Source: Comamonadaceae bacterium (GTDB lineage Bacteria; Pseudomonadota; Gammaproteobacteria; Burkholderiales; Burkholderiaceae_C). From it: 64,000 nucleotides of DNA. The position numbers and the translations under genes were made by a program. The notes under the pieces are model-generated. The model was not told the origin of the DNA. It ran no database searches and saw only the letters and a program-made list of their open reading frames with translations. Of the stretch, positions 42,728-64,000 are shown one piece after another. Every line of letters starts with the position of its first letter. Position 1 is the stretch's first letter. The stretch lies in the NCBI GenBank assembly GCA_947455465.1, contig CANGNS010000001.1, positions 124,001 through 188,000 of the forward strand, in the 5' to 3' direction.

Positions 42728-43840
42728 TTGCAAACGATCAGCGGCAACATCCTCACGCCCTCTGGCTTTGTGCAGGGCAGCGCTATATGCACGCCTGAGG
42801 GGCGGATTGCGCATATTGAGGGTGTGCCCGTTAGCGAGTCCCAGGCCCGCGACTCGGGCCTGGCGCTGGTACTTCCCGGCTTTATCGACCTGCATGTGCA
42901 CGGTGGCGGCGGGCGCGACATCATGCAAGGGGGCGACGCCGCCAGACGCATCTGCCAGGTCCACGCAGAGCACGGCACCACCGCGCTGCTGGCGACCACC
43001 ATGACCGCGCCGCTGTCCGACATAGCGCAAGCGCTGCAAGGCATTCAGGGCGTCCGTGGCGACCTGCCGCAGGACGGCGCCCACATCTTGGGCGTGCACC
43101 TCGAAGGCCCTTATATCAACGAGGACAAGCTGGGCGCCCAGCCCGCATTTGCCCGTCCTTTGGCTGCGGCTGAGCTGCAGCAGCTCAGCCAATTGGCACC
43201 CATCCGGCTGATCACCTTGGCGCCCGAGGTGCCGGGCAATATGGACCTGATCGACGCCTTGTGTGCCCAGGGCATGCGCGTACAGATTGGCCATACCAGC
43301 GGGACCTATGAGGACGGCGTACAGGCCTTGGGCCGTGGCGCCAGCGGCTTTACGCATTTGTTCAACGCCATGACCGGCCTGCACCACCGTGCCCCAGGCA
43401 TGGTTGGCGCGGCTTTGGCGCATGCCCAGTACGCCGAAATCATTCCGGACCTCATCCATGTGCACCCAGGCGCTATCCGCGTGGCTTTGCGTGCCGTCCC
43501 CTGCCTGTACTGTGTGAGCGACTCTACGGCCGCCACCGGCATGCCCGACGGCCCCTACCAATTGGGGAAGCACACCGTCTACAAATGCATGGGCGGCGTG
43601 CGGCTGGAAGACGGCACGCTGGCGGGCTCGACACTGACCCTGGACCAGGCCTTGCGCAATCTGGTGGACGTTTTGGGCTTGGGCATTTTGGACGCCTCGC
43701 AGCGCGTCTCTACGCATGCGGCCAACTTCATGGGCATCAGCGATCGGGGTCGCCTGCAGCCGGGCGCTTGGGCCGATATGGCGGTGCTAAACCGCGATCT
43801 GGCCTTGCAGTCGGTCTACCTCCAAGGGCGCCCGCTATGA
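42728..43840 (+). CDS. nagA: N-acetylglucosamine-6-phosphate deacetylase
   Basis: A 370-residue amidohydrolase-fold enzyme that converts GlcNAc-6-P to glucosamine-6-P and acetate. Metal and substrate motifs are HVHGGGGRD, GVHLEGPYIN, GHTSGTYED and HLFNAMTGLHHRAPGMVG, with the catalytic Asp in YCVSDSTAATGMPDG. TTG 42728 is preferred as start because AGGAA is six bases upstream. It overlaps the SIS deaminase by four bases, linking both steps of amino-sugar entry into glycolysis. Confidence 0.93.
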   Translation: MQTISGNILTPSGFVQGSAICTPEGRIAHIEGVPVSESQARDSGLALVLPGFIDLHVHGGGGRDIMQGGDAARRICQVHAEHGTTALLATTMTAPLSDIAQALQGIQGVRGDLPQDGAHILGVHLEGPYINEDKLGAQPAFARPLAAAELQQLSQLAPIRLITLAPEVPGNMDLIDALCAQGMRVQIGHTSGTYEDGVQALGRGASGFTHLFNAMTGLHHRAPGMVGAALAHAQYAEIIPDLIHVHPGAIRVALRAVPCLYCVSDSTAATGMPDGPYQLGKHTVYKCMGGVRLEDGTLAGSTLTLDQALRNLVDVLGLGILDASQRVSTHAANFMGISDRGRLQPGAWADMAVLNRDLALQSVYLQGRPL

Positions 43841-44859
43841 GCACCGCCATGCTGACCGAGGCCTTGCAGGCCCCGCAGATGGTGGCCCAGCAACTGGCCC
43901 AAGACGCAGACCAATACGCTGCTTTCGGCGCCCTGCTGCACAGCCGCGACCCCAGCGCGGTGCTGACCGTGGCGCGCGGCAGTTCAGACCATGCAGCCCA
44001 ATTCTTGGCCTATCTGGTAATGGCCCGCATGGGCCGGCTGGTGACCTCGCTGCCCATGTCGCTCATCACCTTGTACCAATCCCATATGCGCTGCCAAGGC
44101 TTGCTGTCCCTGGCTTTTTCGCAGTCCGGCCAAAGCCCGGACTTGGTCGCACCCACCGAATTTTTCAGCCAGGGCGGCGCGATCACCGCCGCGTTCGTCA
44201 ATGAGGTCGACTCGCCACTGGCCCGCGCCGCCCAATGGGCTTTTGCGCTGCATGCCGGTCAGGAGCGCAGCGTAGCGGCTACAAAAAGTTATATCGCCCA
44301 ACTGGTAGCAGGCGGGCGCGTCGTCGCCGCCTGGCAAAACGACCCTGCGCTGCAGGCTGCCTTGGCCGACTTGCCACAGGCGCTAGAACGCGCCGCGCGC
44401 ATGGATTGGAGCGCCGCCCTTCCTATTTTACATGGCGCCGACCGCCTGTTCGTGATCGGCCGAGGCACCGGCATGCCCGTGGCCCTGGAAGCGGCCTTGA
44501 AGTTCAAAGAAACCTGCGGCATCCAGGCCGAGGCCTTTTCCAGCGCCGAGGTCCGCCATGGCCCGATGGCGCTGATCGATGAGGGCTACCCCTTGCTGGT
44601 CTTGGCCCCGCGCGGCCCGGCGCAGCCAGGTTTGCTCAGTTTTGCCAGTGATATGCGCGAACGTGGCGCCAAAGTACTACTGGCCGCCCCCCAAGGCACA
44701 CCAGCGGCCAATCTGCCCCTGGCCACCACCGGCGCCCTCGATCTGGATCCGATTGCTGTGATCCAAAGCTTCTACCCCATGGTTGAGGCCCTGGCCCGCG
44801 CCCGGGGCCGGGACCCGGACGCACCCCGTTTTTTGGCCAAGGTGACCAAGACCCATTAG
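43837..44859 (+). CDS. SIS-domain glucosamine-6-phosphate deaminase (NagB-II type)
   Basis: A 340-residue protein equal to the isomerase half of GlmS without the glutaminase domain. Two SIS domains are seen: VARGSSDHAAQFLAY and SFSQSG-like FSQSGQSPD (about 46-115), and VIGRGTGMPVALEAALKFKETCGIQAEAFSSAEVRHGPMAL (about 205-245). Such proteins deaminate glucosamine-6-P to fructose-6-P and ammonia. The overlap with nagA supports this role rather than sugar-amine synthesis. Confidence 0.88.
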   Translation: MSTAMLTEALQAPQMVAQQLAQDADQYAAFGALLHSRDPSAVLTVARGSSDHAAQFLAYLVMARMGRLVTSLPMSLITLYQSHMRCQGLLSLAFSQSGQSPDLVAPTEFFSQGGAITAAFVNEVDSPLARAAQWAFALHAGQERSVAATKSYIAQLVAGGRVVAAWQNDPALQAALADLPQALERAARMDWSAALPILHGADRLFVIGRGTGMPVALEAALKFKETCGIQAEAFSSAEVRHGPMALIDEGYPLLVLAPRGPAQPGLLSFASDMRERGAKVLLAAPQGTPAANLPLATTGALDLDPIAVIQSFYPMVEALARARGRDPDAPRFLAKVTKTH

Positions 44860-44987: not shown

Positions 44988-46241
44988 ATGCGACATGTGG
45001 TGGTTATTGGTGGTGGGGTAGTCGGGCTCACAACGGCCTGGGCTTTGCTGCAGGCCGGCCATGAGGTCAGCCTGGTAGAACAGGAGACAGCGATGGCCCA
45101 AGGCGCAAGCCGGGCCAATGGCGGCCAGCTCAGTTACCGCTACGTATCGCCCCTGGCCGATGCCGGCATTGGGTTCACAGCATTGCGCTGGCTCTTGGAG
45201 GCCGATAGCCCGCTGACGTTTCGCCCCGAAGCCCGCATGGTGCAGTGGCGCTGGCTGGCCTCGTTTTTGGCCCACTGCAACTCGCAGATCAACCAACGCA
45301 CCACCCAGCGCCTGCTGGCCTTGGGCGCGTTCAGCCAGCAGTCTTTTGCGCAGCTGTATGCCCAGGCCCAATTAGAGGGCGTCAGCCTGCGCACGCCGGG
45401 CAAGCTGGTGATGTACCGCAACGCCCAAGCCCTGGCCCGTACGGCGAGCCGACTGCGCGCCGATCCGGCCAGCGTCGAGCAAGTGCTCGATGCGCACGAG
45501 TGCCTCGCCCGCGAACCCGCACTGGCGCACAGCCCTGTTGCATGGGCCGGCGGCATCTTTACCGAAGGTGAGGCGCTGGCCGATTGCCACGCCCTGTGCC
45601 TGCAACTCGCGCAGCGCCTGCAAGCGCACTCCCACTTCAAGGGCTTTGTCCACGCCCAGGCGCAAAGCCTGCACGTGCGCCAGGGCCAGGCGCAGGCACT
45701 AAACACCAGCGTAGGCGCCCTGGGTGCTGACGGGTTTGTGATCGCAGCCGGCCTGGGCAGCCGGGCCTTGGCAGCAACTGCAGGGATCGATCTACCGCTC
45801 TATCCGCTCAAGGGCTACAGCCTGACCGCAGACATCGGGCCAGGCCACCACGCACCGCAAGTCAGCGTAACGGATATTGAGAAAAAAGTGCTGTACGCGC
45901 AAATTGGCAGCCATCTGCGTGTGGCAGCGATGGTGGATTTGGTCGGTGAAGACGCCCGCATTGACCCTGGCCGCATGGCCTCGCTGCACCGCCTGGTGCA
46001 GGCGACTTTTCCGCAGGCTGCCCACTACGAGAGCGCGACGCCCTGGGCGGGCTTGCGCCCTGCGACACCTTCGGGCGCGCCGATTTTGGGCGCCACTGCG
46101 GTGCGTGGCTTATGGCTCAACGTGGGCCATGGCGGCCTGGGTTTCACCATGTCATTTGGCTCGGCACGCATCGTCGCAGACCTCATGGGTGGCAAGGCCA
46201 GCCCGATAAGCCTCGACGGTTTGCAGCTTTCCTCCATGTAA
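44988..46241 (+). CDS. dadA: D-amino acid dehydrogenase
   Basis: A 417-residue flavoprotein with the FAD-binding VVIGGGVVGLTTAWALLQAG at residues 4-23, SRANGGQLSYRYVSPLAD matching the DadA family, and the C-terminal AGLRPATPSGAPILGAT and NVGHGGLGFTMSFGSA blocks. It oxidises D-alanine and other D-amino acids to keto acids and passes electrons to the respiratory chain. In this setting it would use D-Ala released from murein peptides. Confidence 0.92.
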   Translation: MRHVVVIGGGVVGLTTAWALLQAGHEVSLVEQETAMAQGASRANGGQLSYRYVSPLADAGIGFTALRWLLEADSPLTFRPEARMVQWRWLASFLAHCNSQINQRTTQRLLALGAFSQQSFAQLYAQAQLEGVSLRTPGKLVMYRNAQALARTASRLRADPASVEQVLDAHECLAREPALAHSPVAWAGGIFTEGEALADCHALCLQLAQRLQAHSHFKGFVHAQAQSLHVRQGQAQALNTSVGALGADGFVIAAGLGSRALAATAGIDLPLYPLKGYSLTADIGPGHHAPQVSVTDIEKKVLYAQIGSHLRVAAMVDLVGEDARIDPGRMASLHRLVQATFPQAAHYESATPWAGLRPATPSGAPILGATAVRGLWLNVGHGGLGFTMSFGSARIVADLMGGKASPISLDGLQLSSM

Positions 46242-46251
46242 TACCCATAAA

Positions 46252-46283: not shown

Positions 46284-46304
46284 CCTGTTGCACGTCCTGA
46301 TAAA

Positions 46305-49172
46305 TCAGAACTTGTAGGTGGCCTGCATGGTGTAGGCACGTCCACGGGGATCGGCTACGCGCGGGTCCCATGAGCTGCCGGCACCGGTGTTGGTGTCATA
46401 GCTGATCGCAAACGGAGGATCGGTATTGAGCAAGTTTTTGATGCCGAAGGTCAGATCCAGGTTTTTGATGCCACTGTAAGTCACGCTGGTGTTGTACAGG
46501 ATGTAAGCATCCACATCAGGATTCCAATCCGTCGGGGTGTAAGTCGGCACGTAAATCACGGCCTGCTTGTAGCCACTGCGGTACAGCTGCGTGATGGACG
46601 CGGACCAAGGGCCATCGGTGTAGCTAGCTGTCAAGGAATGCTTCCAACGCAATGCAGGATCGTCATTGGCATTGAACTGGCCAATCAGGCTGTCACCAAA
46701 AGCGGCATTGGGCACAGGACGGGATTTCTTCTCGAGCAGGTAAGTACCTTCGAGCATGATGCCCCAGCGCGCTGTATCCAATTTGCCATAGAGGCTGGCA
46801 TTGATGTCCACACCCGTGGTGACGGTCTCGCCAGCGTTAATCCAGCGCGTGTCGACTTGGACGATATTGCCCGAAGCGTCACGGATGAAGTTGCTGGCAA
46901 AGGAAGCATAGTTGGCCAACAAGCCGTTGGCACCGGTCAGGGCCGCCGCCTGGATAGTGCCGGTCTTATTGATGGTCCACCAGTCGGCACCGACGGTCAT
47001 GCCTTCGGTAGGCTCCCATACGAATCCGACGGTCCCTTGTTTGCTCTTCTCAGGCTGCAATGCCGGGTTGCCACCAAACAAGGTGGTGAACACAATGGCT
47101 TGGCAGCCAGGCGTGGTCGAGACTTTGAGTGTGGGGCATGTCACGGGGTCTACCGTGTTCGTTCCGCCAGGAGACTCTGTCACACCAAAGAACTGCTGCT
47201 TAAAGTCCGGCACACGGAAGCCCGTGTTGTACGAACCGCGCACCATGAAATGCTCCACCGGCGCAAAGCGCAAAGACACTTTGGGGTTGGTCGTGGAACC
47301 AAAGCCGGTGTAATCGTCGCGGCGCAGCGCAACCGTTGCTTCCAATTCTTTAGTAATGGGCAACAACAATTCGCCATAGACCGCTTTGATATCGCGGGTC
47401 ATGGTGTCCATGGTGTTGACATAGTCAAAGGCGGCGTTAGGAATGCCGATCTGGGTAATCAAGTCGGTATCTTTGCCGTTGAAGGCAAACTTCTCGGTAC
47501 GCAGGTCAACGCCCACCGCAGCCATGGCGTCGCCGCCGGCCATTTTGAAGACCGGTCCGCTGGTCTTGGCATCGGCCTGAACCAGGGTGAACTTACCACC
47601 GTAGAGCTTGACGCCCGTGGCAGAAGCAGCTGCCAAAGCGGCAGTTGCAGCAGCCGTTTGTGGCTGGTTAGGCGCCAGGAAGGGGTTCAAAACACCGGTG
47701 TTAATGGCGGTCGCCAATGGCGCGCCAAAGTAATAGCCGCCGCCCAAGATAGACGAAGACTCGCTGCTGGCCGTAGAAATGCCTGCGCGGTAATCCCAAT
47801 CGGCCACGCCAGGCAGCGGGCCTTCCAGGCCCACCAAACCACGCGAGGTTTCGGTTGTGGTGTCGTATTGGCGCGGACCGCAAGGAACGCAGCGCCACCG
47901 GAAGGCCAGAGGCTGGCCACGGTTGGCTTCCAGGGTGGGGAACACCGCCACCATTTGGTTAAACACCGTGTTGTAGGACGAACCCGTGCTGGGGTAGGCC
48001 AGGTTGTACAGCGGGTTATTGATTTGGTAAGGCGCGGTGCCAGAAAGCACGGTTGCCGAGCTGCTCAATTGCTGCGCTGAAAACACCTTGGACGACTTGA
48101 CAGTGGCCTGGGTAATCTCGCCATACAACTCGTGTTCGCCAATGCGGAATGTGCCGCGCGCCACCAAGTTGGTGTTGGCAACCGGTTGCTGCAGGGTCGC
48201 CGCAACGCCCGTATCAAAGGTACACGAGTATTTGTTACTCAGCGTGCCTTGCCACAGCATGTACTCGTAGGGCGCCATACCGGGCACTGAACTACAGCCT
48301 GCGCCGCCAGGCAGTGCCAGGGGGTTCACGCGTGCGTAAGTTTGGGTGCTTCCGGGCAAGGTCGGGCCGGTGGATGTTTTGTTACTCAGTCCGGACCACA
48401 GGCTTGCAATGCCCACCACAGTGGCGACCGGTGTACCGCCAGTGTCAGGAGAGACGCCACGGTTAGGCTGGTTGGTATTGATAAAACCGCGCTGGCTACC
48501 AAGCAAGGCCTGGTTCTCGCTGCGCGTCAGTCCGACGATGAAATTGAACTTATCGGTATCTAGGTCGCCAGCGCCGCCGGTCACGCTCACGCGGTTGACG
48601 TTTGCGCCACCTTGCTGCGTCACGTCAGTAAAGGCGCTGACGGTCAGGCCCTGGTAGTTTTTCTTCAAGATGAAGTTAATCACGCCGCCAATTGCGTCTG
48701 TGCCATACACGGCAGAGGCGCCGTCTTTCAAAATTTCAACCCGCTCCACGGCGGCCATAGGAATTTGATTCAGGTCGACCGAACCGCCGTTCAGTCCGTG
48801 TGCAGCAAGGCGGCGACCGTTGAGCAAAACCAGGGTGTTATTGGAGCCCTGACCGCGCAAATTAGCGGCCGAAAGTCCATTACTGCCACGACCGGAGCCT
48901 GCGGCCACGTCCGAGTTACTGGCCAAATTATCCAGGCCATTACCCGCAACGCTCAGGACGCTCATTAACTGCTCGGCAGTCACAATACCTTGGCGTTTCA
49001 AATCTTCGCTGGATATGACCTGCACGGGCAAAGCCCCTTCGGCGGCAACGCGCTTGATACTGCTTCCGGTAACCTCGACGCGCTGCAATTGCGCATCTGC
49101 GGCCGATTGCGCCAGGGCCACGGTGGCCATTCCCATAAGGGCCATGGCGTGGGCGAGTTTGTTAAGTTTCAA
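46305..49172 (-). CDS. TonB-dependent outer-membrane receptor
   Basis: A 955-residue receptor with signal peptide (cleavage after ALA near 21), a plug domain (DLKRQGIVTAEQLMSVLS, NLRGQGSNNTLVLLNGRRLAAHG, VERVEILKDGASAVYGTDAIGGVINFILKK) and a long beta barrel ending in YKF. Receptors of this size carry oligosaccharides or peptides more often than siderophores. Neighbours are dadA, nagA and dacB, so peptidoglycan fragments are a reasonable cargo, but no ligand can be read from the barrel. Confidence 0.92.
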   Translation of the reverse strand: MKLNKLAHAMALMGMATVALAQSAADAQLQRVEVTGSSIKRVAAEGALPVQVISSEDLKRQGIVTAEQLMSVLSVAGNGLDNLASNSDVAAGSGRGSNGLSAANLRGQGSNNTLVLLNGRRLAAHGLNGGSVDLNQIPMAAVERVEILKDGASAVYGTDAIGGVINFILKKNYQGLTVSAFTDVTQQGGANVNRVSVTGGAGDLDTDKFNFIVGLTRSENQALLGSQRGFINTNQPNRGVSPDTGGTPVATVVGIASLWSGLSNKTSTGPTLPGSTQTYARVNPLALPGGAGCSSVPGMAPYEYMLWQGTLSNKYSCTFDTGVAATLQQPVANTNLVARGTFRIGEHELYGEITQATVKSSKVFSAQQLSSSATVLSGTAPYQINNPLYNLAYPSTGSSYNTVFNQMVAVFPTLEANRGQPLAFRWRCVPCGPRQYDTTTETSRGLVGLEGPLPGVADWDYRAGISTASSESSSILGGGYYFGAPLATAINTGVLNPFLAPNQPQTAAATAALAAASATGVKLYGGKFTLVQADAKTSGPVFKMAGGDAMAAVGVDLRTEKFAFNGKDTDLITQIGIPNAAFDYVNTMDTMTRDIKAVYGELLLPITKELEATVALRRDDYTGFGSTTNPKVSLRFAPVEHFMVRGSYNTGFRVPDFKQQFFGVTESPGGTNTVDPVTCPTLKVSTTPGCQAIVFTTLFGGNPALQPEKSKQGTVGFVWEPTEGMTVGADWWTINKTGTIQAAALTGANGLLANYASFASNFIRDASGNIVQVDTRWINAGETVTTGVDINASLYGKLDTARWGIMLEGTYLLEKKSRPVPNAAFGDSLIGQFNANDDPALRWKHSLTASYTDGPWSASITQLYRSGYKQAVIYVPTYTPTDWNPDVDAYILYNTSVTYSGIKNLDLTFGIKNLLNTDPPFAISYDTNTGAGSSWDPRVADPRGRAYTMQATYKF

Positions 49173-49275: not shown

Positions 49276-49440
49276 TGACGCAAAAACCCATTGTCAACAA
49301 GGGGTAAATATCTGCAAAGTCACAGTTTTGTAATGAATCATACCGCGCAAACCATAACTTATCGGAATACCTCCATAGGAATACCGCGCAGCAAGGGTGA
49401 CTCCTATGGGCGCCTGGACAAAATTGGTGAGAATGGTGCC

Positions 49441-50919
49441 ATGCAGCGCCCCACCCTTGGTTCCAACCCCATCGCAGCCCGGACGGTAAGTTACCGCTGG
49501 CTGCTCGCTTTATGCACAACGACCCTGGCCGCCTGCGCCAGTGCGCCACCGCCCAGTACCCTGCCGCCGCCCGTGCGCGCCGCCCTGGACAAAGCTGGCC
49601 TGGGCCCAGAAACCTTGGGGGTGGTCGCCTACCCGCTGACGGGCAAGGCGGCGGGCCTGGCCATCAACCCCCACAAGGCGCAGCAGCCCGGCTCGACCAT
49701 GAAAATCGTCACCACGCTGGTGGCGCTGGACCGCCTGGGCACCAATGCACGTGGGCGCACCGACTTGCTCGCAGCGGCCCCACCCCAAGGCGGCATCGTG
49801 GAGGGCCCCCTTTACTTGCGCGGCGGGGCTGATAGCGACCTGGATTGGGACAGCCTCTGGGGCCTGCTGCGCCAATTGCGCGAGCAAGGCGTGCAAGAAA
49901 TCCGGGGTGGCTTGGTCGTGGACCGCCAGCTCTTTAACCCGCCCCGCTTGGACGTGGGCGCAACGCCTTTTGATGCCTCGCCCGAGTTCCAGTACAACGT
50001 GATCCCGGATGCGCTGTACCTCAATTCCAGCTTGTTGAGCTACGTGCTGCGCTCGGACGACCAAGGCGTCAGCGTGCGCACCAGCCCGGCGCTGAAAAAT
50101 TTGGATTTGGATACCAGTGCAATGTTGCTAAACGACAACAGTTGTGCCCAATGGGAAGCCAGCTGGGTCCTCCCCCAGACCAGCACCGAGGGCGGGCGCA
50201 TGCGCGTTCGCTTTCTTGGCCAATTTCCCAAAAACTGCAGCCAGACGCTGGAACTGCAATTGCTCGACCGCCAATGGCTGACCGCCGCCGTCGTGCGTCA
50301 GCTGTGGGAGGAGCTCGGCGGGCGTATCAGCGGACCGGACGCAGAAGGCGGCACGCCCAATAGCGCCGTGGTTTTGGCCACCCACATGGGGCGACCGTTT
50401 GCCGAAGTGGCGCGCGGCATGATGAAGCGCTCGGACAACCCGCTCACGCGCCTGACTTATTTGCGCTTGGGCGCGCTCAACGCCGCGCCCGGCGAACCGA
50501 CGCTGGCGGCAGCATCGCGCGTCGTGAACGATTGGTTGCGCGCCAAAGGCATACCCACCGAGGGCTTGGTGATGGACAACGGCTCGGGGCTTTCGCGCAG
50601 CGAGCGCATCAGCGCGCAGCAAATGGCCGCTCTTTTGGAAAACGCCTACCGCAGCCCTGTTGCACCCGAACTGCTGGGCACCATGCCGGTGGCCGGTGTT
50701 GATGGAACGCTGGGACGGCGTTTTAAGGACACCCCGGTCCAAGGCCGGGCGCGCCTGAAAACCGGCACCTTGCGCAACGTGGTGGCCTTGGCCGGCTATG
50801 TGCAGGACCAGGACAACAACACCTGGATTGTGGTGGCCATGCTCAACCATGACGAGGCGCCAGCCAAAGGGCGTCCGGTGATTGACAGCATCATCCAATG
50901 GGTGGCAGCGCCCCATTGA
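49441..50919 (+). CDS. dacB: D-Ala-D-Ala carboxypeptidase/endopeptidase (PBP4), lipoprotein
   Basis: A 492-residue class C penicillin-binding protein that trims and cleaves murein peptides. ATG 49441 is chosen since it gives a lipoprotein signal with lipobox LAAC (Cys32). The active site has Ser85 and Lys88 (PGSTMKIV), the SxN-equivalent in DNGSGLSRSERIS and KTGTLRN near the C-terminus; the PBP4-specific insert lies between the first two. Lipid anchoring is unusual for DacB, which is soluble in E. coli. The next gene starts 26 bp downstream. Confidence 0.9.
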   Translation: MQRPTLGSNPIAARTVSYRWLLALCTTTLAACASAPPPSTLPPPVRAALDKAGLGPETLGVVAYPLTGKAAGLAINPHKAQQPGSTMKIVTTLVALDRLGTNARGRTDLLAAAPPQGGIVEGPLYLRGGADSDLDWDSLWGLLRQLREQGVQEIRGGLVVDRQLFNPPRLDVGATPFDASPEFQYNVIPDALYLNSSLLSYVLRSDDQGVSVRTSPALKNLDLDTSAMLLNDNSCAQWEASWVLPQTSTEGGRMRVRFLGQFPKNCSQTLELQLLDRQWLTAAVVRQLWEELGGRISGPDAEGGTPNSAVVLATHMGRPFAEVARGMMKRSDNPLTRLTYLRLGALNAAPGEPTLAAASRVVNDWLRAKGIPTEGLVMDNGSGLSRSERISAQQMAALLENAYRSPVAPELLGTMPVAGVDGTLGRRFKDTPVQGRARLKTGTLRNVVALAGYVQDQDNNTWIVVAMLNHDEAPAKGRPVIDSIIQWVAAPH

Positions 50920-56568: not shown

Positions 56569-57468
56569 TTACCAGCGGGTGGTGTACGGTGCGGCCGCAG
56601 GGCCGGGTTTGGACATGCGCATGCCTTGCGGGTGGGTGGCCACATCCAGGAGCGCGGCGGTTTCGGCGTCAGGCGCGCCGGTATAGACGGCGGGCCGGTA
56701 TTTCATCTGAAAGCTGATCATGCTGTCGCGGGTTAAGTCGTCCCACTGGCCGCTGCGCGAGGTGTTAAAGCCATAGTCCGTGAGGCGGTCCTGGAACCAG
56801 CGCGCATCGGGCAATTGGGCCTCATAGACCGGTTTTTTAGCGGCCACCATGGCAGCATCGGGCCAGGCCATCAGGCCCTCGTCGGCAAAACGTTTCCAGG
56901 GGAACAGCGGGCCGGGGTCTTGTTTACGGCCGGGGGCAATGTCGTTGTGGCCGATGATGCGGTCGGGCCGGATGTTGTGGCGCGCAACAATGTCCTTGCA
57001 CAAAGCGATCACCGCGTCCATCTGCGCTTGCGAGTACGGCGCATACACCTCGCTGCCGTCGGCCCGTCTGCTGGGCCCGGGGTTGACAATTTCGATGCCT
57101 ATCGAACTGGCGTTGAGGTTGCGGTGACCCTGCCAGCCGCTGGGCCCGGCATGCCAGGCGCGCCGGTTTTCGTCCACCAGGCGGTAGATGACAACGGGCT
57201 CATCGCGCACCAAGTAATGGCTGGAGACCGAGCGGTTGGACGGCTTGGTCAGGGTTTGCAGCGAGCTGTCATAGTCGCCCACGGTGTAGTGCAGCACTAA
57301 AAATAGCACCCGGCTATCTTGGTTTTCCGAGGTGTAGCTGGTATCCAGACGCACGCCGCTTGCGCAACCGCCCAGCGCCAGGGCGGCCAGCACGCCCAAC
57401 AAGAGGGGCTGCAAGCGCTGCACAAGGCGTGCTAATAATGAAGGGCCATGGGTCATAGGGGCAGGCAA
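56569..57468 (-). CDS. amiD: AmiD-like N-acetylmuramoyl-L-alanine amidase, lipoprotein
   Basis: A 299-residue zinc amidase of the amidase_2/AmpD fold. The N-terminus has a lipoprotein signal with lipobox LGGC (Cys near 35). Zinc ligands are in LVLHYTVG, RAWHAGPSGWQGHRNLN and GHNDIAPGRKQDPG. A C-terminal peptidoglycan-binding-like helix domain (about 215-275, SMISFQMKYRP) follows. It cleaves the sugar-peptide bond of muropeptides at the outer membrane. It heads the minus-strand operon amiD-spmAB-lysR-vanX-ldcA-mepA. Confidence 0.92.
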   Translation of the reverse strand: MPAPMTHGPSLLARLVQRLQPLLLGVLAALALGGCASGVRLDTSYTSENQDSRVLFLVLHYTVGDYDSSLQTLTKPSNRSVSSHYLVRDEPVVIYRLVDENRRAWHAGPSGWQGHRNLNASSIGIEIVNPGPSRRADGSEVYAPYSQAQMDAVIALCKDIVARHNIRPDRIIGHNDIAPGRKQDPGPLFPWKRFADEGLMAWPDAAMVAAKKPVYEAQLPDARWFQDRLTDYGFNTSRSGQWDDLTRDSMISFQMKYRPAVYTGAPDAETAALLDVATHPQGMRMSKPGPAAAPYTTRW

Positions 57469-57516
57469 TCCGCGAAAAAAGAGGGGTTCAGCGTACTACG
57501 GTCGGTCCGCACGGGT

Positions 57517-57562
57517 GCATAGCCATCTTACCGTAGGCCATAACAATCAGGTATGGCTGTGC
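57517..57562. promoter_or_regulatory. Inverted repeat in divergent control region
   Basis: GCATAGCCAT (57517-57526) and ATGGCTGTGC (57553-57562) are inverted with one mismatch, 26 bp apart, in the 198-bp gap between the divergent amiD and murQ operons. It is a possible binding site of the LysR regulator. A TACAAT at 57632 could be the -10 element of the plus-strand operon. Confidence 0.3.
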
Positions 57563-57666
57563 GACCAGTGCCAACGCGTCCATGCTGAGACGGCCAAGTG
57601 CGCCCCATAGCGGCGCGGCGAGGCCTCGCACTACAATGAATTTTCATTTTTTACGCGCCAGCCATA

Positions 57667-58647
57667 ATGAAATATTCCACCGCGCATCTGCGCAGCCACC
57701 AGTTTTCAGCCCTCGAACCCGGCCCGCGCCTGATCATCACCGGGGCCGTACACGGCAGTGAGCAGTGCGGCACGCGCGGCATTGAACGGGTCTTGGCCGA
57801 GTTGGAGCGCGGCGACCTCAGCATCCTGCGCGGCCACCTCACCTTGTTGCCAGTGACCAACCCGCTGGCCTACAACAAGGGCGAGCGCAACGGAGACCGC
57901 AACCTCAACCGCAACCTGCGCCCCAGCGCCGCGCCGATTGACAACGAGGACCGCGTCGCCAATGCGCTGTGCCCCTTGTTGGCGCAGCACGAGGTCTTGC
58001 TGGACTTGCATTCCTTTCGCGCCCCGGGCCAGCCCTTTGCCATGATCGGTCCGGCCAATAACACGGGCAGCCTCGAGCCAGTCCACCAAGCCCACTTGGA
58101 ACAGGCCCTGGCGCTGCGTCTGGGGCCGCGCCGCATCGTTGAAGGGTGGCTGTCCACGTACGCGCAGGGCGTAAAAGAGCGTCTGGCGCGCACCACGGGC
58201 AGCGAGCGCGCCAACTTGCTCAGCACCGACCCGAGCTACGGCGTGGGCACCACTGAATACATGCGCAGCACCGGCGGCTACGCCATCACCCTGGAGTGCG
58301 GGCAGCACGCCGATCCGCAAGCACCCGACGTGGCCTACCACGCCATCCGCAACACCCTGGCCTTTTTGGGCCTGACCGGCGAGCCCAGCCCGCCAGCCCA
58401 CACCGATATCGAGTTTTTGCGCCTGGCCCAGGTGATTGACCGTTACCACCCCGAGGATGCCTTTAGCCGCGCCTGGTCCAGCTTTGACGCGGTGGCCGAA
58501 GGCGAATTGATCGCCCGCCGCCATGACGGCACCGAGGTGCGCGCACCGCGGGCGGGCTACATCATGTTCCCCGACGCCAACGCCACACCGGGCAATGAAT
58601 GGTTCTACCTAGCCCAGCCTAGCGACCGAAAAATCACCGAGGCTTAG
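57667..58647 (+). CDS. AstE/AspA-like M14 hydrolase
   Basis: A 326-residue zinc hydrolase of the succinylglutamate desuccinylase/aspartoacylase family. Zinc ligands are His29 and Glu32 (VHGSE) and His115 (LLDLHSF); the NGDRNLNRNLRP segment is the family's substrate-binding RNxNR-type motif. Known members cut N-acyl amino acids. First in an operon with murQ (3 bp apart), it may act on an acyl or murein-peptide amide bond, but the substrate is not shown. Confidence 0.82.
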   Translation: MKYSTAHLRSHQFSALEPGPRLIITGAVHGSEQCGTRGIERVLAELERGDLSILRGHLTLLPVTNPLAYNKGERNGDRNLNRNLRPSAAPIDNEDRVANALCPLLAQHEVLLDLHSFRAPGQPFAMIGPANNTGSLEPVHQAHLEQALALRLGPRRIVEGWLSTYAQGVKERLARTTGSERANLLSTDPSYGVGTTEYMRSTGGYAITLECGQHADPQAPDVAYHAIRNTLAFLGLTGEPSPPAHTDIEFLRLAQVIDRYHPEDAFSRAWSSFDAVAEGELIARRHDGTEVRAPRAGYIMFPDANATPGNEWFYLAQPSDRKITEA

Positions 58648-58650
58648 TCC

Positions 58651-59547
58651 ATGCTCCCCACCGAAAGCCCCAGCGCGCAGCACCCCGACCTCGACTTGTA
58701 TGCCAGCGCAGACCTGGTGGCGGCCTTCGTGGACGACCAGTTGCTTGCGGTGCAAGCCGTACGCGCCGCCGCCCCTGACCTGGCACGCGCAGTAGATGCC
58801 GCGCTGCCCCGCATTCAAGCAGGTGGGCGTCTGTTGTATGCCGGCGCGGGCACCTCGGGCCGCCTGGGCGTGCTCGACAGTGTGGAGCTTTACCCCACCT
58901 TCTCCTGGCCGCATGGGCGGGCGCAAGCGCTGCTGGCCGGTGGCCAGGGCGCCATGTTCCAGGCCGTCGAGGGCGCTGAGGACGACACGGCCCAAGGGGC
59001 AAAAGATTTGATTTCGGTCCAGGTCGGCCCCCAGGACGTCGTTTTGTTATTGGCCGCCTCGGGCTCCACCCCCTATGTGCTGGGGGCCTTGCAGGCCGCC
59101 CGTGCGGCGGGTGCCTTGACTATTGGCATGGCCAACAACCCCGGCTCGCCGCTGACAGCCCAAGCCGATATCGGCATCACGCTCGATACGGGTAGCGAAA
59201 TCATCTCGGGCAGCACGCGCCTTAAAGCGGGCACCTCGCAAAAAATCGCGCTCAACACCTTTTCCAGCGCACTGATGGTGCGCATGCACAAAGTGCACGG
59301 CAACCTGATGGTCGACCTCAAAGCCACCAATGCCAAATTGCTGCGCCGCGCCGTCGCGCTAACCATGCGCGCAGCTGACTGCGACGAAGCGCTGGCGCGC
59401 CATACCCTGCAGGCCTGCGACAACCATGTCAAAGTAGCCGTTGTCGCCATCAAAAACGGCAGCGATATCGCCAGCGCCCGCGCCCGTTTAGCGGCTGCCG
59501 GCGACAGCGTGCGCGGGGCCTTGGACAGCGCACTGGACGGCGCGTGA
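58651..59547 (+). CDS. murQ: N-acetylmuramic acid 6-phosphate etherase
   Basis: A 298-residue SIS-fold enzyme that splits MurNAc-6-P into GlcNAc-6-P and D-lactate. The phosphate-binding YAGAGTSGRLGVLDSVELYPTFSWP and AASGSTPYVLGAL loops are intact, as are GSEIISGSTRLKAGTSQKIALN and MVDLKATNAKL. It supplies GlcNAc-6-P to NagA at 42728. The stop overlaps the ampG start (GTGA). Confidence 0.95.
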   Translation: MLPTESPSAQHPDLDLYASADLVAAFVDDQLLAVQAVRAAAPDLARAVDAALPRIQAGGRLLYAGAGTSGRLGVLDSVELYPTFSWPHGRAQALLAGGQGAMFQAVEGAEDDTAQGAKDLISVQVGPQDVVLLLAASGSTPYVLGALQAARAAGALTIGMANNPGSPLTAQADIGITLDTGSEIISGSTRLKAGTSQKIALNTFSSALMVRMHKVHGNLMVDLKATNAKLLRRAVALTMRAADCDEALARHTLQACDNHVKVAVVAIKNGSDIASARARLAAAGDSVRGALDSALDGA

Positions 59548-60836
59548 GCGACACTGCAGGCCCCGCACCCCAACCCTGGGCCTGGATTCCCAGCCTGTAC
59601 TTTGGCCAGGGGCTGCCCTATGTGGTGGTGATGACCTTGTCGGTCATCTTTTACAAAAACATGGGCGTAGATAACACGGCGATTGCGCTCTACACCAGTT
59701 GGCTGTATTTGCCCTGGGTCATCAAACCTCTGTGGTCGCCACTCGTGGAGCTGTTTGGCACGAAACGGCACTGGGTGCTGGCGTTGCAGTTTGTGGTGGG
59801 TGTCGCCTTGGCCATGGTGGCTCTGACGATTCCGGGCCCCGACTATTTCCGCATGTCGCTGGCGGTGTTTTGGCTGATGGCTTTTGCCTCGGCCTCGCAC
59901 GACATTGCGGCCGATGGCTTTTATTTGCTGGCCTTGCCCGGCCACCAGCAAGCGGCCTTTGTGGGCGTGCGCTCCACGTTTTACCGGCTGGCCAATATCG
60001 GCGCCCAGGGCGGACTGGTCTACCTGGCCGGCATGTTGCAAGAGCGCACCGGCAGCATGCAAACCGCGTGGAGTGCCGTCTTTGGCGTGCTGAGCGTGCT
60101 CTTTGTGCTGATGGCCCTCTACCACCGCTACGCCCTGCCCCGCCCGCTGGCAGATGTACCCGGCCAGGGGCAGGCCCAGGCCGGCGCGCTGGTGCGCGAT
60201 TTTGTGGGCGTGTTTCGCGCATTTTTCGCCCGTCCGGGTATGGGCGTGGTGCTGGGCTTTTTGCTCTTGTACCGCTTCCCCGAGGCACAGCTGCTCAAGC
60301 TGGCGACGCCGTTTTTGCTGGACAGTACCGCCCAGGGTGGCCTGGCACTGAGCACCAAAGACGTGGGCATCGCCTACGGCACCGTAGGCCTGACGGCGCT
60401 CACGCTGGGCGGCTTGCTCGGGGGCTGGGTGATCTCTAAGGTGGGCCTCAAGCGGGCGCTGTGGCCGCTCATTTTGCTGATGCATGTCCCCAACGCCGTG
60501 TTTGTCGCACTGGCGGTCTACCAACCGCAGGATCTGTGGACCGTCAGCACCGCGCTGGCCATCGAACAGTTTGGCTATGGTATGGGCTTTACCGCCTACC
60601 TGATGTATATGATTTTGGTGTCCCAAGGGCCGCACAAAACCGCGCACTACGCCATTTGCACCGGCTTCATGGCCTTGGGCATGATGCTGCCCGGTATGTG
60701 GAGCGGCTGGTTGCAGCAGCAACTGGGCTATTTGCCGTTTTTTGGCTGGGTCTTGCTCGCCACCCTGCCCTCCTTGGCGATGGCAGCCCTGGTGCGCATT
60801 CCCGCCGATTTTGGAAAGGAAAGCGCCGATGCATGA
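59544..60836 (+). CDS. ampG: AmpG muropeptide permease
   Basis: A 430-residue major-facilitator transporter with about 12-14 helices. The N-terminal PSLYFGQGLPYVVVMTLSVIFYKNMGVDN, LPWVIKPLWSPLVELFGTKRHWVL and ASASHDIAADGFYLLAL blocks are typical of AmpG, which imports GlcNAc-anhydroMurNAc peptides. GTG 59544 overlaps murQ, and the gene overlaps nagX by eight bases, so the three are tightly coupled. Confidence 0.92.
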   Translation: MSDTAGPAPQPWAWIPSLYFGQGLPYVVVMTLSVIFYKNMGVDNTAIALYTSWLYLPWVIKPLWSPLVELFGTKRHWVLALQFVVGVALAMVALTIPGPDYFRMSLAVFWLMAFASASHDIAADGFYLLALPGHQQAAFVGVRSTFYRLANIGAQGGLVYLAGMLQERTGSMQTAWSAVFGVLSVLFVLMALYHRYALPRPLADVPGQGQAQAGALVRDFVGVFRAFFARPGMGVVLGFLLLYRFPEAQLLKLATPFLLDSTAQGGLALSTKDVGIAYGTVGLTALTLGGLLGGWVISKVGLKRALWPLILLMHVPNAVFVALAVYQPQDLWTVSTALAIEQFGYGMGFTAYLMYMILVSQGPHKTAHYAICTGFMALGMMLPGMWSGWLQQQLGYLPFFGWVLLATLPSLAMAALVRIPADFGKESADA

Positions 60837-61965
60837 ACAACGCCTGCAGTCCCTGGACGCTTTTCGGGGCCTGACCATCGCAGCCATGCTGGTGGTCAAC
60901 AACCCTGGCGATTGGGGCCATGTCTACGCGCCCCTGCAACACGCCGCCTGGGACGGCTGGACGCTCACCGACTGTATTTTTCCGTTTTTCGTCTTCATCA
61001 GCGGTATCTCCATGGTGCTGAGCTTGCAGCGCCGCGCGCTCGCTGGGGCCGACAAGTTGCAGCTCTGGGGCCAGGCCACCCGGCGCGGCCTGTTGATCAT
61101 GGCCATCGGGCTGGCGCTGAACTTTATCCCCGCGCTGGACCCGAGCACCCTGCGCTTTCCTGGCGTGTTGCAACGTTTGGGCTTGTGTACGGTCTTGGCC
61201 GCGCCTCTTGTTTTGTACTTTGCTTGGCGCGCCCAACTGGCCTGGTTGATTGGCCTGCTTGTGGTCTACACCGGCTTGCAAAGCGGAGTGCCGGTACCCG
61301 ACGCCCAGGGCGTTTGGCATACCGGATCGTGGTTGGCCGGGCAGGACACCGGCGCCTGGCTGGACCGACTGCTCATGGACGGCCATCTGTGGCGCACCAG
61401 CAAGACCTGGGACCCCGAAGGCCTGCTCTCCACCGTGCCGGCTGTGGCCAGCCAATTGGCCGGCGTGCTGGCGGGGCACTGGCTGGTGGTACAACGCGCA
61501 CCGATGGAGAAAACGGTGTGGCTGCTCGTCGCTGGCCTAGCCTTGGTGTGGCTGGGCCCTATCGTCGGCGCCTGGAGTATGCCCATCAACAAAGCACTGT
61601 GGAGCCCCGCCTATGTGCTGCTGATGGCGGGCTGGGCCTGCGCCAGTTTGGGTGTCTTGCATTGGCTGCTGGACGCCATGCCGTCGGTAATTTGGCGCAC
61701 GCGCGCTGCCGCATGCGCCCGGCCGGCGGTGATTTTTGGCATGAACGCCTTGTTTTTGTTTGCCTTGTCGGGCCTGGTGGCCAAGATGCTGGGCTTTATC
61801 AAAGTCGCGCCCGGGCAATCGCTCAAGGTCTGGATGGTCGAGGGGCTTGGCAGCATGGGCTTGGCGCCGATCAACACCTCCTTGCTGTTTGCCTTGTTGT
61901 TTATGGTTTGCTTTTACGCCGTGGCTTGGGCCATGTGGCGCAAACGCTGGTTTGTGCGGGTATAA
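60829..61965 (+). CDS. nagX: NagX-type membrane acyltransferase (DUF5009)
   Basis: A 378-residue multi-helix protein of the heparan-alpha-glucosaminide N-acetyltransferase/NagX family. Key segments are RLQSLDAFRGLTIAAMLVVNNPG, TLTDCIFPFFVFISGISM with the putative catalytic region, and FPGVLQRLGLCTVLA. NagX occurs in GlcNAc-utilisation clusters of Xanthomonas and others, where its exact step is not settled; it may acetylate aminosugars across the membrane. GGAAAGGA lies seven to ten bases before ATG 60829. Confidence 0.87.
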   Translation: MHEQRLQSLDAFRGLTIAAMLVVNNPGDWGHVYAPLQHAAWDGWTLTDCIFPFFVFISGISMVLSLQRRALAGADKLQLWGQATRRGLLIMAIGLALNFIPALDPSTLRFPGVLQRLGLCTVLAAPLVLYFAWRAQLAWLIGLLVVYTGLQSGVPVPDAQGVWHTGSWLAGQDTGAWLDRLLMDGHLWRTSKTWDPEGLLSTVPAVASQLAGVLAGHWLVVQRAPMEKTVWLLVAGLALVWLGPIVGAWSMPINKALWSPAYVLLMAGWACASLGVLHWLLDAMPSVIWRTRAAACARPAVIFGMNALFLFALSGLVAKMLGFIKVAPGQSLKVWMVEGLGSMGLAPINTSLLFALLFMVCFYAVAWAMWRKRWFVRV

Positions 61966-61970
61966 GCACC

Positions 61971-63545
61971 ATGCAGCACTGGAGCCGCCGCCAAACCTTG
62001 CTCGCCGCCGCAGGATCCGCCTTGGCGGCCAGCGGCTTAGAGGCCTGCGCCAGCCTGCCGCCGGTCTGGCAAGTGGCGCCCGAGTTGGACGCGCTTGCGC
62101 CCGCCGCCCCGCGCGAGTTCCGTGCCGCCTGGGTTGCCACCGTCGCCAATATCGACTGGCCCAGCCGCAAAGGCCTGAGCAGCGCTGAGCAGCAGGCGCA
62201 AATCCGCGCCATCGTGGACCGTGCAGCCGAGCTCGGCCTCAATGCACTGATCCTGCAAGTGCGCACCAGTGCCGATGCCTTCTACCCCTCAGCGCTCGAG
62301 CCCTGGAGCGAGTACCTCACCGGCACCCAAGGCCAGGCGCCCGAGCCGTTTTACGACCCGCTGGCACTGTGGATTGAATTGGCCCACGCACGCGGCATGG
62401 AGTTGCACGCCTGGTTCAACCCCTTTCGGGCGCGGCAAAGCGCGGGCCGCTCGGCACCGCATGCCAGCCATGTCAGCCAATCCCAACCGACCTGGGTCAA
62501 GACCTATGGCGACCAGCTCTGGATGGACCCGGGCGAACCCGCTGCCGCCGCGCACACCCTGGCTGTCTTCCAAGATGTGCTGCAGCGCTACGACGTGGAC
62601 GGCATCCATATCGACGACTACTTTTACCCCTACCCGGTGACCGAGAACGCCCAGTCCAAAACCGAGATCGACTTCCCAGACCAGCCCGCGTGGCAACGCT
62701 ACCTGGACGGCGGGGGAACGCTGGAGCGCGCGGACTGGCGTCGCGACAACGTGAACCGCCTGGTGGAACGCATTTACACCATGATCCGCAGCACCAAGCC
62801 CTGGGTGCAGTTTGGCATCAGCCCTTTTGGCCTGGGCAGACCAGACTTGCGCCCGCCAGGCATTCAAGGCTTTAGCCAGTACCACAAGCTGTACGCCGAC
62901 ATTGAGCGCTGGCTACAGCAAGGCACGCTGGATTATTTGGTGCCCCAGCTCTATTGGCGCATGGACCAGGCGGCGCAGGCTTTTGTGCCCTTGCTGGATT
63001 ATTGGAACCAACAAAACAGCCAAGGCCGCCATGTTTATGCCGGTATGTTTACCAGCCGCATTGCGGCGCCGGGCGCCGACAGCGCCAGCGGCTGGGCACC
63101 GTCCGAAATCAGCAAGCAAATCGCCGCCACGCGCGAGCGCGCGCCGGGCAGCGGCCATGTGCACTTCAGCATGGTGGCGCTGATGCAAAACCGCCAAGGC
63201 CTGGCCGACACTTTGCGCACCCAAACCTACGCTCAGCCCGCGCTGGTGCCCGCCTCACCCTGGCTGGGCCAGGCGCTTGCGGCTCTGCCCGTGGCGCAGG
63301 TACGCGCAGCAGGAGAAAACGCCGTGACGCTGCAAATTGCGCCAACGCCGACCGCCCGCCGCTGGGCTCTGTGGCTGCGCTACGGCGAGAAATGGCAATG
63401 GATGCCGAGCACCCAGCCCATCATCACGATAGCTGCAACTTCGCCGGACGGGCTACTCAATGCCGTGGTGGTGTCGGCACTCAATAGGGCCAGCCAAGAG
63501 TCGCCCCGTTTGGGTTTGCTGCCGCCATCAGGAGGCAAAGAATGA
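61971..63545 (+). CDS. digH: DigH-like glycosyl hydrolase (GHL10), Tat lipoprotein
   Basis: A 524-residue enzyme related to DigH (YddW), which binds and cuts murein glycan strands stripped of peptides. The N-terminus has an RR pair and lipobox LEAC (Cys near 26), giving a Tat-exported lipoprotein. The TIM-barrel part spans about 40-400 with REFRAAWVATVANIDWPS, GLNALILQVRTSADAFYPS, WFNPFRA and the VDGIHIDDYFYPYP acidic motif. The last 100 residues form a small beta domain. ATG 61971 was preferred: the open frame above overlaps nagX in a different frame and is not homologous. Confidence 0.9.
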   Translation: MQHWSRRQTLLAAAGSALAASGLEACASLPPVWQVAPELDALAPAAPREFRAAWVATVANIDWPSRKGLSSAEQQAQIRAIVDRAAELGLNALILQVRTSADAFYPSALEPWSEYLTGTQGQAPEPFYDPLALWIELAHARGMELHAWFNPFRARQSAGRSAPHASHVSQSQPTWVKTYGDQLWMDPGEPAAAAHTLAVFQDVLQRYDVDGIHIDDYFYPYPVTENAQSKTEIDFPDQPAWQRYLDGGGTLERADWRRDNVNRLVERIYTMIRSTKPWVQFGISPFGLGRPDLRPPGIQGFSQYHKLYADIERWLQQGTLDYLVPQLYWRMDQAAQAFVPLLDYWNQQNSQGRHVYAGMFTSRIAAPGADSASGWAPSEISKQIAATRERAPGSGHVHFSMVALMQNRQGLADTLRTQTYAQPALVPASPWLGQALAALPVAQVRAAGENAVTLQIAPTPTARRWALWLRYGEKWQWMPSTQPIITIAATSPDGLLNAVVVSALNRASQESPRLGLLPPSGGKE

Positions 63546-64000
63546 GCGCCTCGCAAGCGATGGGCTTGGGCCTAGACGCGGGCGGTAGCCGCACCCGCTG
63601 GGCCTTGGCAGATGCACAAGGCCAAACCCTGGCGCAAGGCGAGGTCGCTGGCATGAGCGGCCTGCAAATGCAATCGGATGCGGGTCGCGCCACCTTGCGC
63701 GCCACGCTGCACGAATTGGCGCAGGCACTGCGCGTTACCGGGCCCGTGGGTGACCTGGGGCTGTATGGTGGCTTTACTGGCCTGGGTGGGCCGGCAGAGG
63801 AGGCCCGCATGCTGGCCTTGATGCACGAATGCTTGCCCTTGGCCCCGGGGCGCGCAACCCTAACCCACGACATGGACATCGCCTACCGCGCAGCCTACGC
63901 GCCGGGCGAAGGCTATTTGGTGTACGCGGGCACCGGCTCGATTGCCGCATTCATCGACGCGCATGGCACCACCCTGCGCGCTGGCGGGCGTGGCCCGGCG
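63542..64000 (+). CDS. BadF/BadG-type N-acetylhexosamine kinase, partial
   Basis: The first 153 codons of a sugar kinase; the end lies beyond the window. The phosphate-1 motif GLGLDAGGSRTRWALAD (residues 8-24), the GLYGGFTGLGGP block and the phosphate-2 motif VYAGTGSIAAFIDAHG are intact, as in BadF/BcrA-family GlcNAc kinases and the MurK kinase of Clostridium acetobutylicum, which phosphorylates MurNAc and GlcNAc. ATGA overlap with digH. Following murQ and ampG, it probably supplies MurNAc-6-P or GlcNAc-6-P. Confidence 0.88.
   Translation, partial: MSASQAMGLGLDAGGSRTRWALADAQGQTLAQGEVAGMSGLQMQSDAGRATLRATLHELAQALRVTGPVGDLGLYGGFTGLGGPAEEARMLALMHECLPLAPGRATLTHDMDIAYRAAYAPGEGYLVYAGTGSIAAFIDAHGTTLRAGGRGPA

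Follow-up and report, generated by a model that had tools for sequence, protein, structure and literature searches.

In the genome of a Comamonadaceae bacterium, we found an island of about 31 kb that is probably a regulated locus for the capture and catabolism of extracellular murein (peptidoglycan) fragments, and that encodes a TonB-dependent receptor as the candidate importer at the outer membrane. It extends over 42.7-73.7 kb in the coordinates of a 64,000-nucleotide stretch of contig CANGNS010000001.1 (positions 124,001 to 188,000; G000:C1:124001-188000 in our collection), here referred to as the window, whose numbering is carried on beyond 64000 into the right flank. The genome (3.06 Mb in 34 contigs, 96.6% complete) belongs to a relative of Comamonas, and the nearest locus with MurQ, the etherase of N-acetylmuramic acid (MurNAc)-6-phosphate, is on a contig of a metagenome-assembled genome of Comamonas sp. 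lk (L006), with 96% identity in MurQ.

Eighteen genes lie at 42,728-64,000, the majority of them from families acting on peptidoglycan or peptidoglycan products as called by Pfam and NCBIfam profiles, for which curated cut-offs were compared. Every gene named in the initial annotation of this DNA was recovered by these profiles. That annotation had described a 21-kb peptidoglycan block, which stands as a block, but its right end is not the limit of the locus: further island genes follow as far as about 73,685, past which the genes have, by eye, no visible link to it.

Recurrence of the locus among relatives

We surveyed 299 genomes of the family (141 genera), together with 61 genomes of congeners, and found MurQ in 50 of the former (27 genera) and eight of the latter. 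Forty murQ neighbourhoods were compared, namely those of all seven other MurQ-containing congeners and of 33 of the 49 other MurQ-containing family genomes. With 25 locus proteins as the query (at least 45% identity), 250 matches were obtained, with three or more other locus genes in 28 of the 40 regions, while 28 control open reading frames (ORFs), picked mechanically from window positions 1-40000, yield three matches across all 40. The earlier claim of a cluster is therefore borne out, as a real and recurring peptidoglycan locus.

When the window's own region is counted as the 41st (several regions end at contig edges, and weak matches are included), digH is found in 30 regions, ampG in 26, amiD in 24, badF in 21, nagX in 19, lysR and ldcA in 17 each, vanX in 16, PBP4 in 14, astE in 11, spmAB and the receptor in eight each, dadA in seven, MurA in six, nagA and NAGPA in five each, mepA in four and nagB in two. 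A similar core recurs in the best 80 of 101 MurQ loci from the GTDB collection, taken with flanks of up to 10 kb: digH (73), ampG (71), amiD (70), badF (64), vanX (56), dadA (54), lysR (50), nagX (43), PBP4 (34), spmAB (20), astE (12), ldcA (8) and the receptor (8).

A TonB-dependent receptor tied to the locus

The receptor subfamily, delimited at E <= 1e-140 with the two best candidates scored per genome, is present in 33 of the 299 family genomes (20 genera), 32 of which are also MurQ-positive (Fisher p 5e-29, with MurQ in 50 of 299). Per genus, MurQ occurs in 19 of the 20 receptor-containing genera vs eight of the 121 others (p 3e-16); to the detriment of our reading, both p-values overstate independence because the genomes are related, and the chance level was judged from the distance between genes, the counts per genus and the control ORFs. 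Of the 32 genomes that carry receptor and murQ, the two genes lie within 40 kb of each other in 20, 110-153 kb apart in four, and on different contigs in eight. We then scored ten neighbour genes (PBP4, ldcA, vanX, lysR, ampG, murQ, dadA, amiD, astE, and nagA) and, leaving out the window's own genome, found at least one of them within 10 kb of the receptor in 30 of 32 genomes, and PBP4 in 25 of 32.

Where the receptor is located apart from murQ, it mostly keeps the order lysR-vanX-ldcA-PBP4-receptor-dadA or parts of it. In genomes G195 and G269 its neighbours are ampG and astE only, and in G053, the sole receptor genome without MurQ, it lies amid amiD, astE, ampG, vanX, ldcA, PBP4, and oppABCDF. 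In 30 of 32 genomes besides the window's own, the receptor thus keeps its place next to genes for hydrolysis and catabolism of a single substrate, and the earlier suggestion that the locus has its own TonB receptor agrees with both this adjacency and the co-occurrence with MurQ. As an association of genes, the tie between receptor and this peptidoglycan system is well supported. Because the receptor stays near the peptide genes even when murQ is far away, the gene neighbourhoods indicate two modules, sugar and peptide, which are joined in this island, with the receptor belonging to the peptide module. The D-alanine (D-Ala)-centred content of that module (PBP4, LdcA, the VanX-like dipeptidase, and DadA) hints that the cargo may be peptide-bearing fragments, and an outer-membrane receptor would be needless for fragments already in the periplasm.

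The cluster receptors form one group of 38 (at least 489 bits), and the next two receptors in the genomic stretches compared score 216 and 179 bits. A tree of the 38 with these two others, rooted for drawing only, resolves a clade of 17 (support 99/96), a clade of 16 (100/100), and five receptors in neither. The window receptor falls in the clade of 16; the clade of 17 includes the receptors of the congeners G319 and G327, and that of G027, whose gene adjoins PBP4. The receptor genes of G319 and G327 are flanked by dadA and PBP4, like that of the window, and their products are 36-38% identical to the window receptor vs 62-91% for the other genes found there. Judged from gene order and identity, the receptor slot is conserved and its occupant is exchanged relative to congeners.

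Tentatively, and with less confidence than for the island itself, we propose that this receptor family may comprise outer-membrane TonB-dependent importers of peptidoglycan fragments, with two clades that swap in the slot and track different ligands, perhaps the mureins of different prey or neighbours; the island could then be regarded as a "peptidoglycan utilisation locus" of Burkholderiales feeding on bacterial necromass, in which an AstE-family enzyme replaces MpaA. Neither such a locus nor a TonB receptor for muropeptides was recognised in our searches of open-licence papers in PMC.

Near murQ in five other genomes (G036, G075, G077, G111, and G258), a different receptor-like protein of about 1000 aa (TonB type by eye) is encoded within 20 kb.

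Operon layout and divergent region

Two back-to-back gene runs diverge from a 198-bp gap (Table 1). The leftward run consists of amiD-spmAB-lysR-vanX-ldcA-mepA, with intervals of 8, 9, 1, 42 and -4 bp, and the rightward run of astE-murQ-ampG-nagX-digH-badF-epimerase-AmpH-like, with intervals of 3, -4, -8, 5, -4, 26 and 9 bp (gene starts are mechanical start codons). A TACAAT block upstream of astE is kept in eight of eight aligned orthologous regions, own included, and a CAGCKTACTACG block in the gap is present in all seven regions whose aligned stretch extends there. A CATATCTTTTGATTATGG-like dyad block of this divergent region occurs in relatives but is absent from the window itself, and was not used as evidence. 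The LysR-type protein encoded within the leftward run had no close relative among solved structures; its best model, PRK11013, which the database table lists only as a LysR family regulator, is that of the diaminopimelate (DAP)-responsive LysR of E. coli, and this was likewise left out of the evidence.

Table 1. Features of the island in window coordinates, with profile support
Feature	Position	Strand	Support
nagA, N-acetylglucosamine-6-phosphate deacetylase	42728..43840	+	TIGR00221 239 bits, cut-off 225.65
SIS-domain glucosamine-6-phosphate deaminase, NagB-II type	43837..44859	+	PF01380; NF046059 255 bits, below cut-off 430
dadA-like D-amino acid dehydrogenase (D-Ala to pyruvate)	44988..46241	+	NF001933 406 bits, cut-off 383
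TonB-dependent outer-membrane receptor, candidate peptidoglycan-fragment importer	46305..49172	-	PF00593, PF07715
PBP4/DacB DD-carboxypeptidase/endopeptidase	49291..50919	+	TIGR00666 178 bits, over cut-off
NAGPA-type phosphodiester glycosidase, accessory	50946..51794	+	PF09992
MepA murein endopeptidase, accessory	51797..52678	-	NF006947 347 bits, over cut-off
LD-carboxypeptidase (S66, LdcA), twin-arginine leader	52675..53745	-	PF02016+PF17676; NF008424 173 bits, below cut-off 378
VanX/DdpX-like D-Ala-D-Ala dipeptidase	53788..54408	-	PF01427; NF007557 150 bits, below cut-off 176
LysR-type regulator, within leftward operon	54410..55312	-	PF00126+PF03466; NF008239/PRK11013 124 bits (next 78), below cut-off 288
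Gate-domain (SpmA-SpmB-like) membrane protein, probable transporter	55322..56560	-	PF07670 twice
AmiD/AmpD-type N-acetylmuramoyl-L-alanine amidase, lipoprotein, peptidoglycan-binding domain	56569..57468	-	PF01510+PF01471; NF008758 92 bits, below cut-off 143
Divergent intergenic region, 198 bp	57469..57666	.	Eight orthologous regions aligned, the window's among them
AstE/aspartoacylase-family zinc hydrolase, proposed murein-peptide amidase (MpaA-like reaction)	57667..58647	+	PF24827
MurQ, MurNAc-6-phosphate etherase	58651..59547	+	TIGR00274 303 bits, cut-off 302
AmpG-type muropeptide permease	59544..60836	+	TIGR00901 (subfamily model) 177 bits, below cut-off 350
NagX, HGSNAT-type transmembrane acetyltransferase	60829..61965	+	PF07786; NF046061 148 bits, below cut-off 480
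DigH/GHL10 glycosyl-hydrolase-like lipoprotein, Tat-like leader	61971..63545	+	PF02638 217 bits
BadF-type kinase, candidate for N-acetylglucosamine (GlcNAc)/MurNAc	63542..64468 (window ends 64000)	+	PF01869 over cut-off; NF046058 61 bits, below cut-off 370
L-Ala-D/L-Glu epimerase	64495-65595		PF02746+PF13378
AmpH-like beta-lactamase-fold protein	65605-66957		60 bits, below cut-off 266
MurA	66964-68379	-	Over TIGR01072 cut-off
SBP5 binding protein with Opp-type permeases and ATPases	68397-73685		Opp-type ABC transporter

Proposed working of the island

From the enzyme families, the operon layout, the recurrence and the receptor association, all of which are read directly from sequence, we infer the cargo of the receptor and of the Opp-type transporter, the substrate of the AstE-like enzyme, the ligand of LysR, and a net nutritional use of extracellular murein. 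The individual reactions are those known for the named families. The TonB receptor would take in, through the outer membrane, peptidoglycan fragments that porins do not admit, intact muropeptides exceeding the size limit of general porins. In the periplasm, PBP4 and MepA would cut cross-links and strip D-Ala, the LD-carboxypeptidase, exported by the twin-arginine translocation (Tat) pathway, would take off the fourth D-Ala, and the lipoprotein amidase would release the stem peptide, with DigH trimming bare glycan. AmpG would then import GlcNAc-anhydroMurNAc, with or without peptide attached, from which NagZ and AnmK (encoded elsewhere) would yield MurNAc-6-phosphate; MurQ would convert this to GlcNAc-6-phosphate and D-lactate, and NagA and NagB-II would lead on to fructose-6-phosphate. 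Peptides may enter through the Opp-type transporter, the AstE-like zinc enzyme cutting the gamma-D-Glu-DAP bond and the epimerase turning L-Ala-D-Glu into L-Ala-L-Glu, while the VanX-like dipeptidase would split D-Ala-D-Ala and DadA would oxidise D-Ala. LysR is predicted to switch both divergent operons, perhaps on DAP or a muropeptide.

If this working is correct, a patchily distributed group of Burkholderiales can feed on the bacterial wall, using its sugar, D-Ala and peptide together, and the step by which this material crosses the outer membrane would be identified. For the entry of muropeptides into Gram-negatives from outside, the receptor subfamily, with its neighbours in 30 of 32 genomes, is a defined candidate. 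The enzymes themselves are known ones; what appears new is their assembly and the candidate muropeptide receptor family.

Sugar branch

NagZ and AnmK each gave one match over the Pfam cut-off outside the island, on contigs C20 and C7 respectively (the former also over the cut-off of NF003740, at 405 bits), so that a supply of MurNAc-6-phosphate is encoded genome-wide. With AmpG (by its subfamily model, below cut-off), MurQ and NagA, the components of a MurQ-type recycling or catabolic pathway are present, and the chain to fructose-6-phosphate that had earlier been called nearly complete is, by family, complete in the genome. It is not completed to the right of the window, where NagZ and AnmK had been suggested as possible and a check for mpl proposed: these genes are on C20, C7, and C11 (Mpl). 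The genome also encodes an AmgK-like kinase beside lptD (355 bits with NF045759, cut-off 550), so a recycling-type MurNAc step exists as well. For this reason we tentatively read MurQ-NagA-NagB as an extra set of enzymes that makes catabolism possible. The earlier reading of a catabolic locus is retained as likely, in the sense of a real locus that includes the receptor, and qualified by the recycling-type step beside it. The BadF kinase has weak matches (at most 51 bits) to solved sugar kinases including NAGK and a MurNAc/GlcNAc kinase.

Peptide branch and envelope enzymes

A Tat-like leader pattern is found in 19 of 27 LdcA orthologue sequences, own included (in more by eye), and in 24 of 29 DigH orthologue sequences; a lipobox pattern is found in 22 of the 29 DigH sequences and in 24 of 25 amidase sequences. 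The patterns used are rough ones, and in some cases the match precedes the probable start codon. Given such export leaders and lipoboxes, cross-links would be cut, D-Ala removed and the amidase active in the envelope, ahead of import. The island LdcA, with its twin-arginine leader, is not of the cytoplasmic kind, and no search was made for a second LdcA. We saw by eye no leader in the VanX-like dipeptidase.

The AstE-like protein occurs in 87 of the 299 family genomes, i.e., in 47 of 50 with MurQ vs 40 of 249 without. It does not have the M14 (PF00246) domain of MpaA, and matches PF24827 AstE_AspA_cat instead. H29, E32, H115 and E210, which by analogy we take to be the zinc site, are invariant in 23 sequences. 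Its structural model (predicted local distance difference test, pLDDT, 92) has EutE/AstE as best fold matches, followed by CphZ, which cuts an isopeptide, and more distantly by Csd4, which cuts a murein tripeptide. That the enzyme cuts gamma-D-Glu-DAP as MpaA does is a fair guess at most.

Among solved structures, the island epimerase is best matched by 1JPM, an L-Ala-D/L-Glu epimerase, at 301 bits and over residues 2-357 of 366; to this structure the enolase-superfamily domains, the catalytic Lys pair and the DxD motif, presumably involved in substrate binding, could be aligned; the protein scores below the NF041118 cut-off. Together with the Opp-type transporter it lies just outside the window, on the side where a D,L-peptide route had been hoped for, and from these families such a route is plausible.

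Across five congeneric regions, the SpmA-SpmB-like Gate protein is conserved at 82-93% identity, and it is again encoded next to PBP4 in clusters of the Massilia type; its model (pLDDT 70) gave no fold match under E 0.001, the best weak ones being VcINDY and a TRAP transporter. The NAGPA protein had no NCBIfam match. In MurA, Asp replaces the Cys that the two best solved relatives carry in the aligned PGGC motif; this Cys is the active-site residue, and Asp forms resist fosfomycin.

Alternative explanations and points against the proposed function

Most of the enzymes discussed above are shared with peptidoglycan recycling, and the island could serve that purpose, recovering the cell's own turnover products while the receptor recaptures leaked fragments, without nutritional use of foreign murein. 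The presence of Mpl and of the AmgK-like kinase fits this explanation, and a Caulobacter study describes recycling without MurQ and LdcA (PMC13046382). We nevertheless regard it as rather unlikely, since the receptor, the exported LD-carboxypeptidase, D-Ala oxidation, the epimerase and the etherase-deacetylase-deaminase chain point to breakdown, and MurQ, found in just 50 of 299 relatives, does not answer a housekeeping need. It is improbable, in our view, that the receptor is a mere neighbour that carries other cargo such as a siderophore, cobalamin, a nickel complex, or a non-murein peptide or glycan: it co-occurs with MurQ in 32 of 33 genomes from 20 genera, adjoins system genes in 30 of 32 even when the island is split, and, in those island proteins that were searched, nothing for iron or cobalamin was recognised. 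What speaks for such a cargo is a plug-level likeness to BtuB and siderophore receptors, the generic database names, the nickel-type best model (below cut-off) of the right-hand binding protein, and, roughly 20 kb leftward, a further TonB receptor accompanied by peptidases. We consider it very improbable that the island is a response to wall stress or beta-lactams, in which a LysR sensing muropeptides as AmpR does would govern wall-editing enzymes, the AmpH-like protein and the Asp-containing MurA for wall protection. The LysR gene does lie beside those for PBP4, MepA, LdcA and the VanX-like dipeptidase, with AmpH-like and MurA to the right, but this explanation leaves nagA-nagB, dadA, murQ, the epimerase and the receptor unaccounted for, and in the 41 murQ regions MurA is present in just six and mepA in just four.

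Several observations weigh against a capture-and-catabolism island itself. Among the 18 genes in the window, NagA, DadA, PBP4, MepA and MurQ score over their curated NCBIfam cut-offs; NagB-II, LdcA, the VanX-like protein, LysR, the amidase, AmpG, NagX, BadF and the epimerase fall below those of their best models, which for all of these but the epimerase makes the exact substrates less sure. Gene order, which had been proposed for comparison across relatives, turned out not to be general: MurQ is present in eight of 61 congeners, mepA, NAGPA, nagA and nagB recur in just two to five of the 41 regions, and 12 of the 40 regions hold zero to two other locus genes, so MurQ also occurs without the cluster. 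Eighteen of the 50 MurQ genomes lack the receptor at the threshold used, with only two candidates scored per genome, and in the GTDB sample some of the few receptor matches (just eight of 80) are partial and less than 30% identical. Three genomes have the receptor without system neighbours: G084, G173, where it lies at a contig edge, and G373, a genome of another family in which no other locus gene was found within 15 kb; a class-wide search found the receptor in two of 369 genomes, own and G373, and hence gives no support outside the family. Solved receptors resemble it over the plug only (BtuB best, then colicin I and siderophore receptors), and relatives are named "iron complex outermembrane receptor" in databases. 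The control TonB receptor at about 80 kb (barrel at about 80001-81986) matched only its own genome, one of 299, with no other match at E <= 1e-97, and is uninformative on MurQ tracking.

On the peptide side, 20 astE regions away from murQ (19 from MurQ-less genomes, and one from G261, whose MurQ is encoded on a different contig) contain a single locus gene between them, which makes the MpaA-like assignment weak. The best model of the Opp-type binding protein is nickel-uptake NikA (130 bits, below the cut-off of 393), ahead of GsiB and DppA, and the protein matches a solved murein-peptide binding protein at 77 bits only. With Mpl encoded on C11, reuse of the tripeptide is possible as well. Of the island proteins searched by family profiles, none was recognisable as a secreted enzyme of lysozyme type, so prey lysis is unsupported here, and gene association cannot separate fragments of other bacteria from self-shed ones.

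Comparison with known systems

Peptidoglycan recycling in E. coli (AmpG, NagZ, AnmK, MurQ, NagA, LdcA, MpaA, YcjG, and Mpl) involves the same reactions, but there the genes are dispersed, LdcA is cytoplasmic and no dedicated TonB receptor is known. The closest solved relative of the island epimerase, 1JPM/1TKK, is YkfB of B. subtilis, a Gram-positive without an outer membrane; this comparison offers no counterpart to the other island genes.

In Tannerella forsythia, the regulated operon ampG-murTKQ, which serves external muropeptides, is described as combining AmpG and MurQ with a transporter and a kinase for MurNAc (PMC5388701; "TonB" is absent from its main text). In the island, ampG and murQ share one gene run with a BadF-type kinase, a candidate for GlcNAc or MurNAc that scores below the NF046058 cut-off. 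T. forsythia is described as lacking MurA/MurB and requiring MurNAc (PMC7670621), whereas the island encodes MurA, in addition to a receptor, D-Ala and peptide branches, and NagA-NagB. Fidelibacter multiformis IA91 uses muropeptides as wall, energy and carbon source according to its description, in which the step from MurNAc-6-phosphate to GlcNAc-6-phosphate, also encoded here, belongs to external muropeptide catabolism (PMC11652737; neither "TonB" nor "transporter" occurs in its main text); unlike our bacterium, it is a wall auxotroph and from another phylum. The nag clusters of Caulobacter resemble the island in having a TonB receptor beside NagA/NagB-type catabolic genes: they consist of a TonB receptor, a phosphotransferase system (PTS) permease, NagA, and NagB, and are upregulated by GlcNAc. 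Unlike in the island, however, the cargo is GlcNAc, and the source reports no MurQ or LdcA homologue and recycling by the MurU pathway (PMC13046382). A Shewanella sugar-pathway study presents nagX and nagB-II as new assignments (PMC2996990), and the parts of another paper that deal with muropeptides treat them as plant elicitors and do not address their uptake (PMC3551730).

Neighbouring genes and minor observations

The G+C content is 63.0% at 42728-64000 vs 57.8% for window positions 1-42700. Directly to the left of nagA, a MacB/FtsX-type permease and an HlyD-type protein of an export system are encoded at 39666-42109. Further to the left, 31039-37084 looks like a sugar-acid catabolic cluster, with an enolase-superfamily enzyme, a TctC binding protein, a DHDPS-family enzyme, a LacI regulator, and a galactarate/altronate dehydratase. 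At 21017-31005, an S9 peptidase, an M14 carboxypeptidase, a 1008-aa TonB receptor, an M28 peptidase and an amidase are encoded together, as if forming a second scavenging-type cluster for external protein or peptides.

Many of the unlabelled ORFs that recur in murQ regions looked antisense. In one genome, two copies of murQ lie about 3 kb apart in opposite orientation (G228:C31:376452-381234).

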